A stretch of DNA of 64,000 nucleotides from Arctopsyche grandis. Lineage: Eukaryota > Arthropoda > Insecta > Trichoptera > Hydropsychidae. Below are positions 319-63,971 of this stretch, in pieces. How positions within the stretch are numbered: position 1 is the stretch's first letter; each line of letters starts with the position of its first letter. Both the position numbers and the translations under genes were made by a program. The notes below the pieces were generated by a model that saw nothing but the letters and a program-made list of their open reading frames with translations, was not told the origin of the DNA and ran no database searches. The stretch covers positions 12,824,001-12,888,000 of the forward strand of contig NC_135360.1 in the NCBI RefSeq assembly GCF_051622035.1, in the 5' to 3' direction.

Positions 319-903
319 CCGTTAATCTGTCGTTCAATTTGTCTGGCGATTTTAGAGCGGATGCACCGCATCCGATCCAGCCTGTATAATTTGAATAGAT
401 CGAATCGGTTACTGCTGTTTCAGTTACGTCACTAACACATTACGAAAGGTATGAATATGTCCGTATAGAATGTATTACAAAATATTTTTTATACTGCTGT
501 TTACGTACAGTTTCCAGCTTGACCTGTACTGGCTTAAACGAACCATTTATCGTTAATTAATAATAAAAAATATTATTATTTATGATTTTTAAATATTTTT
601 TTTTATTTTTACCATGCGGCTATTGCACGTCACATTGCCATGGTGCCACGCTCCATAGCAAGACCTATGGTTTTTAAACTTGTACATATTCAAATTGATA
701 ATTAATAGAAATCATGTTTCATAAGTACTTAGTATTTATTTACTTGGTTACCATATCAATTATTTAGTCCTGGTGGTATAAAAGTGTAAGCGATTATATT
801 GTATTTTTTACTATTTTATTATTTTTTCCATTTTATCTTAAAAAAATATTATCAAAAATTTCCCCTTTAAATGGCGAATGAATCTTTTTTTTTCTTTTGG
901 CAG
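319..903 (+). other. Probable intron sequence upstream of the filamin-repeat exon
   Basis: No open frame of note. The stretch ends in a long pyrimidine tract and CAG at 901-903, a good splice acceptor immediately before an ATG at 904. The in-frame ATG at 871 translates this pyrimidine tract (MANESFFFFWQ), so it is probably not the true protein start. Confidence 0.55.
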
Positions 904-3900
904 ATGTTTTCCAAAGAAGACTTAACCAATCCGGTGTTGTCTACATATCAAGAATGCAGGCTGGCTCATTACTTATGCTGCATCAGAGATTCTCTGGATC
1001 GTCTAAGCCCTCCCTTATCCAGGACTGGATCACCCATTATGAACTTGCAAGCTTACACTCTGGATTACGTGGCTAGAGGTATGGGACTGGTGACAGCTTC
1101 AAAAAATAGAAAAGCGTCCTTCTATTTATACCCAACTGCCCAGCAAGGACTCGAACCTGGAGAAATATCGATCCAAATCAAAGGTCCCGTAAATAGTTTT
1201 GGGTCCATGCTGATCCCAGCAATCTACGGCAAAGCTCACATTGTCCGAAATGTCTTCTACAATCTAGGACATCGACAAAGTCTCAAAGATATGCAGCTGC
1301 CTATAGCCAGAAGTTCGAATTACAACAACCATTACGTGTCTTCTTCAAATTATTTAATGCCAAAATTTGCTAACGATATAGAAATAAGTATACTCATAAG
1401 GAACGATAGAGTTAAAGTGTTTTATGCACCTAAAGAAATCGGTTACCATGAATTATCCATGATTAGTAAAGGATGCCACATTATAGGATCTCCTTTCGGG
1501 ATAAATGTCGAAGAAGAACGCAATGAGAGATCAGAATCGCGTGACTATGAAGAAGAAATTAAAAATGCAGAACCTCTACGATCCGATAGAAAGATTGTTT
1601 TCAGAATTGTTGATTTCGTCACTGAAAAGATGATACTTACTGAGGATGGTTCTTTAGAAAAAATATCTGACGAAGAAGCAGATGCCCTTATGCGAACTGT
1701 GGATTCTTTAGAAGACATGACTATGAAGTGTTTGCAATATAGTAATGGAGAACGAGCACTCTTCAGCCCCGATTTGATAAAATATAATCAAAAACAAAAT
1801 AAGGTTCAATATAAATCGAAAAAGCATTTCAATATCGTCGCCAAGAAAGTTCTTCTGATGCTTCGAATCTGTAAGGAGCTCAGAGAGTTGGCAAAACTAA
1901 TAAAAATGGATGACAAGCAAAGATCGGAGAGTGTTTCGACTCCGGATATAGTAAATTCAACAAGGAGGGAAGAAAACTTTATAAAATCTGCTGAATATAT
2001 GAGAAGCATATACAAAAATAAACCTACAAGCCTGAACGAAACAAATGATACATTTTCAGATGAAAAGAATATTGGAAGCCAAGATGAAAGTTCACCACGC
2101 AACCATATCACAAAATATCCAGTCATAGATATTGTTATATCTTCTTTTGACGACGATCAAATAGATAATATTATAAACATACCAATTATAGAAGAATTGC
2201 CGGAAAGACCGAAAACTCCGGTCTTTAAAATATTAACAACAGACGACGAAGACGAAGCAAGGACCGAATTATACAAAAATTTCAATATTCAAAATTATGT
2301 TGGACAATTTGATTCCCTCAATCAAGATTCACTGACTGAAGAAGAAATTAATGCATTATCATCAAATGCAATTGAAATTCAAAACACCGAAAGACGAAGT
2401 CCTATTGATTTCCATATAGGAGAACCAGTGACCCCAACATGTATGATGAACGCACCAAATATAGATGGCGACATGGATTCCATAATCTTAGCTTCAAATT
2501 TAGAAGAAGCTCTATTGAAGTATGATAATAAAATTCAAAAAACTATTAAAGATCACGAGCAGTATCCATCTGACAATAACTCTTCCGTCTTTACAACTCC
2601 TCTACGACAAACTCCGTTCGAACAAATGACTGATAACGAAATACTTCAAATGTACGAAGGATCTTTACAACAAGAAGAAGCCGAACTCGAACAGTCTACA
2701 AACAGAAATTCAGAAGAACCAAAAACGTTGGATGATAGTGAAAATGGGTCGTTGGTTACAACTCGAGGAAATAGTTGTGATACATGGGATTCAGCATACA
2801 TGAGCATAGATGAAGTAAACAGTTCTCCAGAATGCAGTACAACCAGTCCTAAAAACGACCAACCTTCCAAATCTAAGCTCTTCGCTATAAAAGAAGCAGA
2901 AATTGATATCATCCAAAGCAGTCAAGTGTATGATGAAATTGATCACGAAGCATATTCTAAAATGGGACCAGCAGAAAAAGAACTTTGGGAATCCATTACC
3001 CAAAATGAAAATCTGAAAGAAAGTCACTTTAACTGTTTAGCAGTTTCACAACCGTATTCCAGGATGATAAAACGAGAAATCAACATACCAACACCTATAA
3101 ATGAAGACGAAATATACAACAAAATTACCAATCCACAAAACGAACTGACAAAAGCGATTTATGTATTAAGTGACGGTTCAGCATCTGATAATAAAGCAGA
3201 TGTGAAACGATCTGTAGAAGAAAATAATCCATATTTGCAAGATACATTGATTTCCTCAATTCAGACTTTGGATGCTGAATTGATAGATGCAAGTCAAACA
3301 GTAAACAACGGCGAAGTGTCAAAAGATGAAGCTTTAAACACACTTCAAGCAAAAAAATCCTTATCAAAGATGGTCTCTGAAAAAAAAGAGTATTGGGATG
3401 ATATGATTAAATCAATAGAGAGCACTGAAGGTGAAAAGAGCCGAACTTTAAATAAAAAATCAACAATTTTGAGAAGAAATGACTCATTGAGTAAAAAAAG
3501 GGAAAATCAAACTACCAATAAAGTTTCACGTATTGAAAACAGAAAGAAATACAACACGGAACCAGTTGATTTTGAATCGCTCACATGTTCAGGAGACGAA
3601 TCTCTCGTCACAAGATGGAAAAAGTATTGGAATGAGAGAATTGAAAGTATGCCGACTCCCGAATCCAACGTTAAATACATTCGTAAGGAACTAGCCAAAA
3701 AAAGAAAATATCTAACATCTCCAGAAGAATTCGTGTCAAATAATTTTAGTGAATCGATGCCTTTTTTAGAAAGAAGCCACGTCACAGAATCTCCGTATGT
3801 TTCGAAGTCCTGTACAAAAAAAGAAGACAATAACCTTGTCGATAAAAAATACCGAGCGAAGTCGATGAGTATGTCGAATTTATCGGAACGAATTGACAGG

Positions 3901-5824
3901 TACTTAGACACAGTGTCAAGTCCGTCAACGATGGTAGATTTGAACGACTCCAGATTCTCAACACCAGATGATTCTGTGACAAAACGAATGGACACACCTG
4001 AAATGACTGTGTCGATTGAAAACAATCTGCTGAAAATTGAAAAGGACGACAAAAAATTAGTGGTGACGTGGAATGAAAGTTCAAATGAAAGAAGAATCAA
4101 AGCATTACAAAACATAAGCAACAGATCTACACCTTTAATAACTGAAGTTATGAATACTGAAATTGCTAATTATAATGAACACAGTTCGTTGCCAACATAT
4201 ATTAATGAAAACATTGAAGCATCAGGAAATCTCGAGGAATTCTCCGTTGATGTGCAATCAAAAATTGAAATCTTAAGAGAAAAAGCTAGACAGTCCTTCA
4301 TTCAAAATAAATCAAAAACCATAGACATTCCACGAGATGAATCATTCAAAACACTTAAAAAATATTTTTCACTTGAAAAAATTGAGCCGACTTCATCTGC
4401 CTTTAATAATATAAAACGCTTTAGTAAAATAAACAAATCAATGGAAACCATTCAACAAACAAGTAATATGAAAGAAGAGTTTAATGCATCTACAGAATCC
4501 ATACCAACACTCTCGGAAAAAAAAGCTAGGATAGAATTGCATCTACAATCCATTCAAAATAAAATTAAATTACAGGCATCAAATCCCCAAATCAATATAA
4601 ATCAAATTCAAAATCACCACGCTGTTCAGGTAAAAGCCGACGATACGGTCATGTGTGGAAATAATGATGATGAAATTAAAGAGGAGTTGAAAAAAATATC
4701 CAAACCGATTGGATCAATTGTGGCAGCTTTTGAACAACAGCACAATGCAGTTAGATCAAAACCAAACATAAACACAAGGAATAAAGACAAATCATCAGTG
4801 CAAATGTCAAAATTGGATGCCGATAGCCCGGAAGGTAAGATGAATATAAATTTCGAAACCTCTAAATAACAACTTTGCACATATACGTACATAAAAAATG
4901 ACAAACCTGAACTTCAAAAATTAAATTCAATCAAAAATTTGTTAAATTTCAGGTACCAATGGGACAGACATTCGAAATTTGCTTACAGTGCTTTCGGTTA
5001 CATCTACAGATATTGCAATTGACGATAATATCAAAAAGCCTTCTGCAGTTCAAGTAGAAATGAAAGAAGATGAAAAGGGTACGTTGCAAGAGCAACTAGA
5101 TGAAGCAGACAATGAAATTCGATCTTCATGTTATAAAGAAAGGTTTCAACAGGCCAAAGCTTTCTTTCAAACACTTGACGAACCAAAACGAAAACCTCGT
5201 AAAAAAAATCTTAATGGATGTGAACAGCTATTACAAGAAGTTGTCAATCCTGATATCAACGATAACGATCCTAAAATAGAAGACAAGCATAAAGATCAAG
5301 AAAAGCAAAGCAAAGAAAAAAGGAGTCATTTAAAGAGATCATACAGAGCATTTTCTGCGCCGACATCAGATAGTGAAACCGATTATTCAAAATACATGTT
5401 TAAACGTGGTGGAAGTGAAAGATTAATGAAAATCTCTGAAAAATTCTTTGTACACGACTTGTTCCGCGACGTGGCAGGAGAAGCAACCAAAACGAGATAC
5501 AGCATATTCAAAGGGATTCCTCACAAAAATGCAGTGTTGGCTTCGTTTCAATCTATGGAGAATATAAACCAACTTTCATCATACGACTATACAGAATCAC
5601 AAATAGAAGACTTTACTAAGAAAAATAGCATTGCTAATTCGCAAACATATCACAGCGAATATCCCCACTTACCGATGACGGATCCCAGCAAATACAGATC
5701 CCGATATGATGCAGTAGCTTCGGGTCTCATCCTAAGAAAAGACATGCTAAAATTACAGAATATGAGGCGAAACAGTGCACCGAGCAACATAGACGTGCAA
5801 TTCAGTCATTATATGGATATTTAA
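904..5824 (+). CDS. Filamin-repeat protein with long disordered C-terminal region (3' part of gene)
   Basis: Two coding exons, 904-4834 and 4953-5824, join in phase 1 across a 118-bp GT-AG intron, giving 1,600 residues and a TAA stop. Residues 55-202 (counted from 904) match a filamin/ABP280 Ig repeat: the GMGL strand, GEISIQIKGP, then VKVFYAPKEIGYHEL and GCHIIGSPFGINV. An insertion of about 55 residues (roughly 101-157) interrupts the repeat. The rest is rich in E, K, S, N and T with many S/T-P sites, consistent with a disordered region. Three related short motifs occur: KELWESI, KEYWDDMIKSI and KKYWNERIESM. The last residues include RRNSAPS. Because 904 follows a splice acceptor, earlier exons (perhaps CH domains and more repeats) probably lie left of the window. 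A jitterbug/filamin relative is possible but not established. Confidence 0.75.
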
Positions 5825-12249: not shown

Positions 12250-19164
<6,915 letters not shown>

Positions 19165-22060: not shown

Positions 22061-36537
<14,477 letters not shown>

Positions 36538-37185
36538 GTTGTCGTGCGGTCACTTGTACCCTCTGCAAAAATTCAAGCATATCATGTCAGAATAACAATG
36601 AAGGACGCATTGTTCACGTTTCACCAAACATCAAAGAACTGATCTGTGAATAAATACTTATTCATATGTGGGTACAAAAATTGTGTTTAACCCAAATAAA
36701 TAATTGTGAATGACCACACACACATTTATATACATATGCATGTACACGGTCACCCATTCAGTGGCACGTTGGCGAATTTAGATTGTCGTCAAATTAGTTC
36801 CGCACAATTGAATGATTGCACCGCGCGAATACGTCGTATTTTATACAAAACTCGACAGTAATGTTTGCACCGTGGAAGACTCGTCTGCATACCATTGTGT
36901 GGAAATGGTCCGAAAACTCGCTCAAAAATGAATTAACGTGATACATGCACTTTGTTTGTCACAATGGAAATGTGAGCTAAAGCGATGTGTTAATCGGAAG
37001 AGAAAATTTAGAGATAAAAAACTATAAGGAAGTGGAAATAAGGAGGCGTATCAAATTAAGATGGAGTGCATTTGGGCGAATGAACGACGTTTTTAAATCA
37101 AAATTGTCACTTTGAAATAAAAAATCTTCGATCACAATGCGTTTTGCCAGTTATGACGTAATTGCATACATATACATACATATAT

Positions 37186-58728: not shown

Positions 58729-59107
58729 CATACTTACATATATGTATGATAAATCTACATAATATTCATAACTTGTGATCTACATATAATTTATATACTT
58801 TTTCTATAATATTCTTTATGAAATTTAGTGTTTAATTAACAAAAATGAATAATTATTCATTTACTTACAAAACGAATTAATCATTCATTATAATCTTGAC
58901 TAATCGCATAATAAAATTGAAGATAGATGGTTATATAAGTAATCCAAGCACCAACGAATGAATATAATAAACTGAAGTTAATATTTAGTAAGGTACTTGT
59001 TATATTACGGTTCAAAAAAATTGATAATTTTAATAGCTCCTTTTTGTCGGCTGCGCCTAAAATTAAAAAACATATTTTCAGTGGAAGTTTCAATGATCAA
59101 TAAAAAT

Positions 59108-59483
59108 CAGGGGCGTCATTTGGGGAGGGGGAGGGCAGCTGCCCCCCTCTAGATTTAAACGGGAATATCGACGTGGTTTAATGTACTATTATGAATTTGA
59201 ATTAAAATACTAAACTAACAAAAATAGAACATTTAAATTCTTTGGAACACTGTCAGGTATAAACTCGTTGATTTTTTCCCAGAAAAAAAAATAGTTTGTC
59301 TTGCTTTGAAAGATATCTGTAAACTTTATCCTACGAAACAAATTGTTGAATAGGATTACCTTTATATTACTGAAAAAACGATAAAATAAATAGACCCCCC
59401 CCTCTAAAGGTTATTCCTTAAGAGGGCTGTACATCCGAAACCTTAATTTTGTTGCCGTTATATCAATATATGTCGCATTCACT

Positions 59484-59574
<91 letters not shown>

Positions 59575-60039
59575 TAAGTGAATGCGACAGTTGCGCTTCG
59601 ACCAGATAAAACGTATTTTAAATTGACAAAATCGAGGTTCCGTATTCTCCTATTTTCTCCTCCGAAGCTGGACCAATTTTTAAAAAAATTTCATCATCGG
59701 TATGAAAAAGATATTTTCTGTGCAACTATACGCGTATTTTTTTTAAAATCGACCGTTAAATAAGCACGCTGGACTCTTTTCGTAGGTGTAAAAAAGAGGC
59801 GATTTTATTGATGTTTGGTGGCTCCTAGCACCTAAAAAAAATACCTAATCAAAAAAATAAAACGATAGATGCAACCCAATGGAGGATATCCATAGCATAT
59901 TAAAAAATAATTTCTCTAGTGCCATAATTGAGGAAGGGAGAAGTCTAATACGTTTGTATGGAGAAGGCGCTGGTGTCCAGCCCTCTTAATGGTCAAAAAT
60001 ATTGGAAAATATATGGGAAAAGCTGAAATGACGCCCCTG
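59108..60039. mobile_element. hAT-type non-autonomous element in the receptor intron
   Basis: Perfect 14-bp terminal inverted repeats CAGGGGCGTCATTT (59108-59121) and AAATGACGCCCCTG (60026-60039), with the G-rich subterminal run usual for such elements. No clear 8-bp duplication. It accounts for most of the 1.1-kb third intron and contains the TTAA element. Confidence 0.7.
59418..59989 (+). mobile_element. TTAA-bounded non-autonomous DNA element, copy B
   Basis: Flanked by TTAA at 59418-59421 and 59986-59989, with termini GAGGGCTG and CAGCCCTC. The body matches 32033-32544 in inverse order, including a frame starting MNATVALRPDKTYFK. It is longer than copy A because a (TA)n run (59486-59567) has expanded. 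It sits inside the hAT-type element, so it inserted later. Confidence 0.75.
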
Positions 60040-60551
60040 ATATGCATGCATATATAAAATTTTGCATTGCACATATGTAAGTTTAATACATAATGACACT
60101 ATGCGTGGAAATACACGTCAGAAACAAAAAAAAATATTCATTATTTTAAAACAAAAAATTTTATGCAATTTTTTTTAATACTAGTTACCTAGTTACCTCT
60201 GTTTTAATAGTAATTTACTTAAATTTATCCGTGTTTGATTTATCATATAAGTAGTCAATTCACCGACTACAAATGGCATGATGAAAATGAATATATCATG
60301 TATGCTACTCGCCACGTTATGACTACCCAAATGCAAATCCTACAAAATAATTATTAATTGGAATTATTTAAAAAATTCAGAAAAAGGTATTATTTTAAAA
60401 ATTTCATTCCTTTTACCTCTGCATTTAAATATGAATTCAAATAGTGCATACCGTCAATTGTTACCGAGTGATACATTGTGTGAAGTAACATAAAAAGCTA
60501 AAATATAAATAATTAGGTTTATAAAATAGAACACTAATTAGTGATAATATA

Positions 60552-60587
<36 letters not shown>

Positions 60588-61337
60588 ATTCAAAATACAA
60601 ACTTGAACGCTAAAAATTGAATTTATCAGATGAATATTATGTGAGACCAGATAATATAACCTATGAATGTCTTTGAAACTAAGAAAATGTGATTATGTAT
60701 TATTCATAATTTTATTTGTCCTCCTCAAAATTAAATAATCAATGTTCAATTGACAGTTGTACGATTTCAATGTGCTATTAATTTCGTATATATACATTAT
60801 AGTTGAAAAACTATAAAGAAAATGTTGAAAATATAATAAGTCCAAATAGAAAACTTGAATATGAAACCAAATAAACCATAGCAATCGATGATTCCAAAAA
60901 AAGGAAATGTGCCACAAATGGTAAAATATCAATATAGAAATCAATGTATAATATAGCACTCGTAAAATTTCACGTAAATTTTTTTTCGGCAGCTCAGCCT
61001 CAATTTCATCCAGAATTTTAATAATTTCCAAAAATATTTTTGATTTTAAAAGAGGAAAAACTATTGATAGCAAATAACATAAAAAATTCTCAGTATGTAA
61101 TATGACGCAAAATATTGACAGTGTATTCATATTCTCGAAAATAAAATCTAAAAGGGACCTTTTATAATTCCACATTGAAAACAGAAACAGTGCTAATACT
61201 TTTATTTTTGCCAAGATATTTGGCTGAAAAACTAACCCGTATTTCTCATTATAATATTTTAATCCTAAATACTCATACATCTTAGATAAAATTTCAATCT
61301 TATCTAATGTTGACCGGTGTTTCAATTTATAATTCAT

Positions 61338-63126
61338 ATTTAATTTTTTTTTAATTTATGGTCGTTTGCATGTGAAGGAATTTTTACACTTACATATGTA
61401 TAATGATATATTTTGAAAGCAATTTCATTATTCCATTAAGAGTATTTTTTATATAATTGATTGTTAATAAGTCGTTCACTAAGTGCAAACAATGTCAAAT
61501 CGTGTAGAAAGTAAACAGTATCATAAAATAATAAGCATCGTATTGTCATATTAAATTTTCATACTTGATTAATTCTTCTTTTTATTAATTAAGTAATTAT
61601 TATTTACGAAATCTGAATTTATATTGTACAAATGTACTTACGGTTAAGTCTACAACGATGATGACAATGATCCAAAATTTCTTGTGTAATAATAATTGTG
61701 AATACTTTTGTTACTCATTTTTCGGCTAGGAAATATTTTAATGACATTTGGTAATTGTAGATTTCTTCAAACACTGAATCTAATTGGTGGAATAAATTAT
61801 AATATATAGAAGAAGTTCCTTCACTTCATAGCCTAAATGAGTACATACCTTCATAGGACATCGTTTCAGTTATTGCATAATTAATTGCTTAAAAAGCAAT
61901 ATTCATGAAGTGGAGTTTTTCGAATATATTAAATGACAAAAATTGGAAATAAGTTTTAGATGTGAAATTATAAATTAAAGATTTTTCTTTAATTCTGTTT
62001 TCTATATACATACATATAGCACACACACTTATTAATTATGTACATTTCCCAATTTTAGAATTAATGAGACCCATTAAAAAAATTACAATATTCAGTAAAT
62101 ATGTATATTATTTATACATAGCCAGCAGTTTGGCTTAACGGTAGCGTATATAATTAGCACCACTGAGACCGAAGGTTCGAATCGTCAAACTGTTGGTTAG
62201 ATTTGGGGGTTTTGTGACTCCAAATTGATCGTATATCAGAGTTTGCCAATTTTATCTGATCATTGCTGAAACGGTTCCTGAAAAATTGGTATAAGATCAT
62301 TTTCCTGTTGTCACAAAAATCTGTCTGTGTATAATTTGTAATAATTATGCACAGTAATCTGAAATCTATAGATATCTCTATAGACATCTCTATAATTTCG
62401 TATTTATTATATGTATAAAATTGTACACAAAAATCTAAAAATAATCCATATATGTCTCTATGATTATTATTTCTGATTAATTGTTATATGCTATATATTC
62501 TGATTGTATATGTATTATTGTATTTCTGATTTCTGATTGTTTATGTATTCTGTATTTCGTTATCGTACACACGTCGCATTGGAGCGATCTGTAATGACGA
62601 GTGTATATTGATTGTAACAATAAAAAAATAAAATATTTGTACATACATTCATGACAGAAAAGAAAAAAAAATAAAAGTTCACTTTATCTATGTATGTAGT
62701 AACAATAGATGAAGTTTTGTTTTTTGTTAATTCAAACCCAAAACAAAAAGTTATACTCGAAGCTCTTTATCAAAGACAAAAAAATAATTATAATGAGCGT
62801 ATGTATGTTCAACGATTTAACGAAAAGCAAAAGCCGAAAATAATAATAATTCCATTTTATATTTAATCATTTAATAGTTTACTCCTTCAATATAAAAAAA
62901 AATCTCTTGGAATGTTAAATGAAACTCATCCAAACACGCGCACTAGTATTATCCTTTATTTTATTAATATACAATATTAATTTTAAATATTGATCGATTT
63001 ATGAAGTATTGAAATAACAATTATATTCATTACTATTGAACATAACTTAAAATATAAATTTACATAAAAGTGAAATTCTGTAGGATTCATTGTAAAGTAA
63101 TATTATAATTTCATATACTTAATATT
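61338..63126. other. Spacer between the two gustatory receptor genes
   Basis: AT-rich. Contains a SINE at 62121 and no other recognised feature. The promoter of the first receptor should lie just right of 61337. Confidence 0.5.
62121..62345 (+). mobile_element. tRNA-derived SINE, copy S4
   Basis: Head GCCAGCAGTTTGGCTTAACG (A-box-like) and GAAGGTTCGAATCG (B-box-like, about 62171-62184). The body has GATCGTATATCAGAGTTTGC, TTTTATCTGATCATTGCTGA and AACGGTTCCTG. AT-rich sequence to about 62640 may be its tail. It encodes no tRNA: the fold beyond the boxes is not tRNA-like. Confidence 0.7.
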
Positions 63127-63971
63127 TTATTCGTATTTTATTAGCTGCATGAAAATAATACAATAAGTCACTATGGCAACACCAAATGAATGTAATAAAG
63201 TAAAATCAATACTCAATAGGGTTGAAGTTGTGGAATTTCTTATGGTGCGATTCAAAAATTTAGAAAATTTCAAAAGATCCTTTTTTTCACTAGCTATAAA
63301 TAAAAAATTGTTAGTCAAAATTAAATATAATATTATAAATTATATATTATATATAAAACATTTACAAGATTTGGAAAAATTTATTGTTCATTCATTTGTA
63401 TATATGTATATGTATGTACATACCTATAAATACATATATGTATATGTACATACAGGAGTATGCTGCAAACTCAGTCCGGCTTATTCTTATATCAAGTTCT
63501 AATAATATTTATCTTATCATAATTTTTTATTGTATAGTTACTGTTTGAGTTTAAAATCTAACCGTTTGTTTGAAATTTTTGATATTCTCTATATTTATAT
63601 GTTTTTGTCAAACACATATAATCAAATCAAAAGTTAAATAATTTACACTTACATACAAATGCATACTATATATTTGTATAAAAAGATATCCAAGTATGTA
63701 CATATATGTATATGAAAACTTTTTATGTTCATAAGCACAGTAAAAAATGTGCATCTACATATATATTATATTATATATTATGTAATTTTACAAAAAGTGA
63801 TAATAGCCATAAGAAAAAAATACCTGATTTCTGTGTTAATATCATTTTACTTATAATGATTCTGGTTTGATTTATGAAATATTTTAATAATTCTCCAACT
63901 ATACATGGCGTTATAAAAATGCGTATTAGATTTAAAATATTCAACACCTGCATGTAATGCATATGTAATTT
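63127..63971 (-). CDS. Gustatory receptor, C-terminal exons (gene continues beyond right edge)
   Basis: Two minus-strand exons, 63971-63824 and 63293-63127, joined in phase 1 by a GT-AG intron and ending in a stop. Exon 63971-63824 reads KLHMHYMQVLNILN and FITPCIVGELLKYFINQTR, aligning with exon 3 of the neighbouring receptor. The last exon reads SEKKDLLKFSKFLNR and DFTLLHSFGVAIVTYCIIFMQL, the final membrane span with the TY-x5-Q hallmark (L in place of the usual F). No lesion is visible in this part. Earlier exons lie right of the window. Tandem paralogue of the gene at 58881-61337. Confidence 0.8.

Follow-up and report, generated by a model that had tools for sequence, protein, structure and literature searches.

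The gene read on the minus strand down to position 58881 of the window, a 64,000-nucleotide stretch of the Arctopsyche grandis genome (C6:12824001-12888000; 475.7 Mb in 189 contigs), is most probably a tandemly duplicated gustatory receptor (Gr) gene that was inactivated recently, an ordinary young pseudogene (probability about 0.85). Set against its intact-looking paralogs, it carries an in-frame TAA in exon 1 and, probably, a faulty donor at the end of exon 3; as read here, one lesion is certain and two are probable. Turnover is rapid among Gr genes, and one copy in this array would have been captured shortly after it died, alongside two open copies, which makes it a clean case for dating the loss of a receptor.

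Reading frame and exon layout

As modelled with exon 3 ending at 60219, the focal gene (A) comprises 370 codons inclusive of the TAA. Its parts are given below in window positions, all on the minus strand.

60603..61337, minus strand: exon 1, 735 nt, ending in phase 0, interrupted by TAA, collinear with exon 1 of B and C
60693..60695, minus strand: codon 215, an in-frame TAA that falls between hydrophobic spans 4 and 5, next base T; sense codons in this column in B and C
60498..60602, minus strand: intron 1, 105 nt, phase 0, donor CAA/GTTTGT
60417..60497, minus strand: exon 2, 81 nt (27 codons), of equal length in B and C
60340..60416, minus strand: intron 2, 77 nt, phase 0
60219..60339, minus strand: exon 3 as far as the nearest frame-keeping GT (60218) before the ancestral end, 121 nt
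60181..60218, minus strand: exon-3 tail homologous to that of the paralogs (SKLLLKQ...), then the tandem 8-mer GTAACTAG in two copies; probable second lesion
59057..60218, minus strand: intron 3, phase 1, with a length of 1162 nt when 60218 is taken as the donor
58881..59056, minus strand: exon 4, with TYITIYLQF and the terminal TGA, matching the paralogs

Translation of exon 1 gives 245 codons with the TAA as the sole stop. It is preceded by 214 open codons that start at an ATG, within a stop-to-stop frame of 220 codons for which the chance is ~7e-7, as reckoned with the stop-trinucleotide frequency of the + strand of the window (0.062; 0.064 on the minus strand). Beyond the TAA the frame continues unchanged with HRLYYLVSHNIHLIN for 30 codons to the phase-0 exon end and a GT at 60602, although these 30 codons taken alone are weak evidence (chance ~0.15). 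The description given in the earlier note, of an in-frame TAA at 60695-60693 with an identical frame on both sides and a phase-0 donor, is confirmed by this translation. Exons 2 and 4 are open, as is exon 3 up to 60219 when the GT at 60218 is taken as its end. The intron-1 donor is weaker in the focal gene (6/9 consensus positions) than the CAT/GTAAGT of both B and C (8/9). Tracts of (TA)n occupy 60552-60584 in intron 1 and 59486-59567 in intron 3.

Assignment to the gustatory receptor family

Searched with X at the stop, the whole frame scores 21.6 bits against the 7tm_7 profile (PF08395; E 1.5e-4, curated cut-off 26.6), in a collinear alignment of residues 50-363 to profile positions 41-369. 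The 155 codons that follow the stop score 25.1 bits alone (E 1.3e-5), just below the cut-off, and the 214 residues before it, searched alone, give no 7tm_7 match. The scores of the paralogs are even lower (B, 16.5 bits; C, 8.9 bits). Owing to these low profile scores of A, B and C, the assignment is carried by motif, transmembrane-like spans and paralogy. The TYhhhhhQF motif of the last transmembrane span, a mark of Grs (PMC2680840, PMC3732137), is present in focal exon 4 as TYITIYLQF, with a loosely hydrophobic middle five residues, and its counterparts are TYCIIFMQL in B and TYIILYVQL in C. Hydropathy reveals seven hydrophobic spans in the focal gene, merged by eye from 18 overlapping rows, of which four precede the stop and three follow it. 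The length of insect Grs is typically about 350-400 residues. At the place in exon 4 where an intron is taken as a Gr feature (PMC2680840), the exon is uninterrupted in the focal gene, B and C, and the last intron of the focal gene, in phase 1, lies ~39 codons upstream of that place. A phmmer search against solved structures returned no match, and a viral_contigs scan with exon 1 found 14 stretches that fit a pattern, none of them a relative. By these sequence characters the genes represent a divergent Gr subfamily, and the Gr identity proposed in the earlier note is borne out.

The tandem array and its surroundings

A DNA search located the focal exon at a single 100% place genome-wide, and found two related places just upstream. 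Translated comparison with C6:12884001-12924000 resolved a tandem array of A, B and C together with a more distant D, and within that interval nothing matched at E 0.01 beyond 12891659. The exons of B, and likewise those of C, can be joined into a single open gene of four exons, and the following parts were placed.

C6:12888944-12888231: exon 1 of B (exons 1-2 of B lie outside the window, at C6:12888061-12888944)
63824..63971 of the window, minus strand: exon 3 of B, 148 nt
63127..63293 of the window, minus strand: exon 4 of B
12890931-12890194 of the genome contig: exon 1 of C

The focal gene aligns with B and with C over its full length. Amino-acid identities by codon column are 151/352 for A-B, 149/352 for A-C and 153/352 for B-C, where the TAA column and any column gapped in one of the three genes were dropped and the focal exon-3 tail stood outside the model. 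D, at genome C6 12891522-12894000, is a more distant Gr with a long open exon 1 and an exon-3 tail that resembles those of B and C. Between the focal gene and B, the stretch 62140-62260 appears by eye to be tRNA-like and SINE-looking; Rfam at gathering scores gave 0 matches in the whole window, this stretch included.

Other features of the window include exons like those of a Rab-type small GTPase at 16223-18998 on the + strand (Pfam Ras, 3.6e-31 on 18329-18628, with other frames judged by eye) and an exon of a major-facilitator transporter at 35644-36549 on the minus strand (MFS_1, 1e-20). A 1332-codon stop-to-stop frame at 871-4869 on the + strand has a weak filamin-repeat match that falls below the cut-off (E 0.0089), and is followed by a 292-codon stop-to-stop frame at 4946-5824.

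The TAA of exon 1

Alignment with the paralogs shows that the TAA is a nonsense codon within ancestral coding sequence. C codes across the segment at nearly the same length, with one residue more (LKSETFKSDCACLILEEKKRIINCNNSLCIISFKEI as compared with LKSYNCQLNIDYLILRRTNKIMNNT*SHFLSFKDI in the focal gene), and B codes across it with 5-7 fewer residues, depending on the alignment. Because both code across the site, no unrecognised intron removes the TAA. The earlier note had reached the same outcome by arguing that no usable intron was present, an argument that does not hold: when introns of 45-400 nt whose removal deletes the TAA were enumerated, exon 1 offered 24 GTs before it and 4 AGs after it, which combined into 18 in-frame GT-AG pairs spanning it.

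These pairs are what commends the alternative that splicing removes the TAA as part of a small intron that keeps the frame, of either 84 nt (60762-60679) or 117 nt (60795-60679), ending at the good acceptor TTTTCTTAG. The best of them, 60795-60679, has a 6/9 donor and 10 pyrimidines of 14, and scores alike with the modelled introns of the focal gene (donors 6/9, pyrimidines 8-10/14). However, at least one pair as good arises in 129 of 1000 codon shuffles, which were unscreened for newly made stops; the segment is coding in B and C; and splicing would cost 28 or 39 codons. The Pfam evidence is mixed, in that removal of the 84 nt lowers the 7tm_7 score of the whole frame to 12.7 bits, while removal of the 117 nt leaves 20.6 bits in an alignment then limited to the post-stop part. 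When the 28 codons that the 84-nt candidate covers were masked instead of deleted, the score was 17.7 bits. Four control masks of 28 residues elsewhere yielded 22.9 bits, no match, 11.4 and 12.4 bits, and three control deletions of the same size yielded 12.5, 14.7 and 8.5 bits. Since the control deletions give similar scores, the drop upon deletion of the 84 nt is not special, and the masking and deletion controls are indecisive overall because most of the score sits after the stop. A single-sequence AlphaFold model of exon 1, with the TAA read as Q, situates residue 215 between helices 200-213 and 221-242 at a mean pLDDT of 52.5, too poor to rely on. The intron candidate was rejected as ruled out by the coding of B and C through the site, and is considered highly improbable.

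As a nonsense codon past the fourth hydrophobic span, in a copy whose paralogs B and C code through, the TAA would terminate a product without spans 5-7 and without the conserved C-terminal motif. It might be supposed that this 214-residue product serves some separate role, and no point in support of this was found; what remains would be devoid of the last three spans and TYhhhhhQF, and has no 7tm_7 match by itself, so that such a role is given next to no likelihood.

The end of exon 3

The phrase "otherwise intact" of the earlier note is apt for exon 1 and probably not for the whole gene, the exon-3 end of which seems broken. Exon 3 of B and of C is 148 nt long and ends in phase 1 (TCAG/GTATTT and ATAG/GTAAAT, respectively), and in D, judged by its tail sequence only, one base is left over after a similar peptide. 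The focal gene retains the homologous peptide SKLLLKQ, then GAGGTAACTAGGTAACTAG, with the tandem 8-mer; the two copies, at 60181-60196, coincide with the ancestral exon-3/intron-3 boundary. Use of the GT in the first copy (60196) would give an exon 3 of 143 nt ending in phase 2, with exon 4 thrown out of frame, and use of that in the second (60188) an exon of 151 nt ending in phase 1, with an in-frame TAA immediately before. Four AGs were examined around the start of exon 4: two of them require phase 1 and the other two phase 0, so that none would fit a phase-2 donor.

In the interval 60339-60051, 5 of 19 GTs keep an open frame into exon 4 from 59056, and all five lie upstream of the ancestral exon-3 end. 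Phase-0 exon-4 acceptors at 59039 and 59036 paired with upstream phase-0 GTs fall outside this test, and with them exon 3 would shrink much. The nearest of the five, at 60218, matches 6/9 of the consensus, equal to the other modelled introns, and would leave an exon 3 of 121 nt, nine codons shorter than in B and C. The GT of B that aligns with it is part of coding AGT AAA inside the longer exon. The exon-3 end was initially placed at 60218, where the frame is kept and B has a GT, and this placement was rejected when fuller B, C and D moved the ancestral end by nine codons.

From this comparison the exon-3/intron-3 boundary of the focal gene is probably also damaged; a 60218 donor would preserve the frame minus nine codons, and the second lesion is not certain. 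In the proposed course of the loss, the place of the ancestral phase-1 donor is now taken by the tandem 8-mer, in which one GT throws the frame off and the other comes just after another in-frame TAA; this boundary is probably damaged, and together with the exon-1 stop this would leave the focal gene without a working receptor product. A more general caution follows for the reading of single exons as having a "single stop, otherwise intact", which can overlook a splice-site lesion shown by paralogs.

Readthrough, sequence error and null alleles

Were gustatory neurons to read through the UAA in a tissue-specific manner, and exon 3 to end at the upstream donor 60218, a full-length receptor might result, and the gene would offer a Gr example of a pseudo-pseudogene. 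The downstream frame is indeed open to the gene end with this donor, and A has no overall excess of protein change, but recent death accounts equally well for the open frame. Neuronal stop readthrough occurs in flies, with a TAA reporter among those used (PMC7244557). Nonetheless, other studies describe UAA as less leaky than UGA or UAG in human-cell reporters (PMC4132726) and a U after the stop, as in the focal UAA-U, as lowering readthrough in yeast and E. coli (PMC5289835). RNA structure around the site is unremarkable, with no downstream stem and no advantage in folding over shuffled sequences for three stretches around or after the stop (z was 0.12 for the one downstream, -1.12 when intron sequence was included and 0.98 around the stop). 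A pseudo-pseudogene should also have the stop as its only lesion, whereas here the exon-3 donor anomaly is avoided only via an upstream GT such as 60218, and rescue would require a donor that the modelled B and C do not use. The suggestion of readthrough, made in the earlier note, gained nothing from the analysis, was lowered by the probable donor lesion lying beyond the exon that the note described, and is judged improbable.

It is somewhat less far-fetched, and still unlikely, that the TAA is a sequence error, or that the individual sequenced carries a null allele while other individuals have a working gene, a reading that partly overlaps with that of a young pseudogene. There is one assembly, and the single 100% place of the focal exon leaves no second haplotype to compare; the same caveat accompanied a termite Gr with one stop (PMC6175461). 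Against this, the exon-3 donor anomaly makes one wrong base insufficient, unless the upstream donor is normal here. As a single assembly makes a fixed loss indistinguishable from a null allele, the loss in the young-pseudogene reading would be recent on a neutral scale, and may have reached fixation or may still segregate.

Age of the loss

The three genes have similar numbers of residues unique to one of them (A 56, B 52 and C 54 of 352 columns). In the part ahead of the stop the number is highest in A (37, as compared with 29 in B and 23 in C, of 204), and in the part beyond it A has the lowest (19, as compared with 23 and 31, of 148). The lack of an overall excess of amino-acid change in A relative to B and C argues that the death was recent, and, with the TAA opposed to sense codons in both paralogs, supports the "very young pseudogene" named among the possibilities in the earlier note. 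Pairwise dN/dS is 0.33-0.55 across the three pairs and both sides of the stop, at dS of 0.88-1.38, which would reflect only purifying selection over the long history of the paralogs and not since the TAA arose. A previous estimate against B (0.59/1.47; 85 codons of exons 3-4) used a shorter exon-3 model and is superseded. Reckoned from lesion counts, two lesions correspond to ~1.0-1.7% neutral divergence (95% span 0.12-6.3%) and one lesion to 0.5-0.9%, a rough bound that takes nonsense changes as a fraction of 0.0528 of random changes and assumes 0.05-0.15 indels per substitution.

Comparison with known systems

Stop-containing Gr matches are common in the A. grandis genome. At least 91 PF08395 matches were found in it (111 of 274 candidates scored), and among the matches listed, from which the focal gene, B and C are absent, 40 by count from the table cover at least 150 profile positions. 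Stops occur in 9 of these 40 long matches and exactly one stop in 5 (C11:24652061, C9:27563922, C13:18571274, C9:31303267 and C9:6824328), some of which introns may explain. In other insects, published surveys describe a stop in the fourth exon of termite ZnevGr92P (PMC6175461), two in-frame stops in Heliconius HmGr61 (PMC3732137) and, for Spodoptera littoralis, a set of 373 Grs of which 19 were classed as pseudogenes (PMC9339325). The focal gene resembles these in having an internal stop in a Gr and in its tandem Gr cluster. It differs from them in nothing of kind, and adds a probable fault of the exon-3 donor.

The Ir75a gene of Drosophila sechellia is reportedly a readthrough pseudo-pseudogene, described by Prieto-Godino in 2016. 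Neuronal readthrough in flies, Ir75a included, is also reported elsewhere (PMC7244557). Like Ir75a, the focal gene is a chemoreceptor whose exon 1-type coding sequence holds a single premature stop, beyond which the frame stays readable; unlike Ir75a, it belongs to another receptor family, is known from sequence alone and has a probable second lesion.
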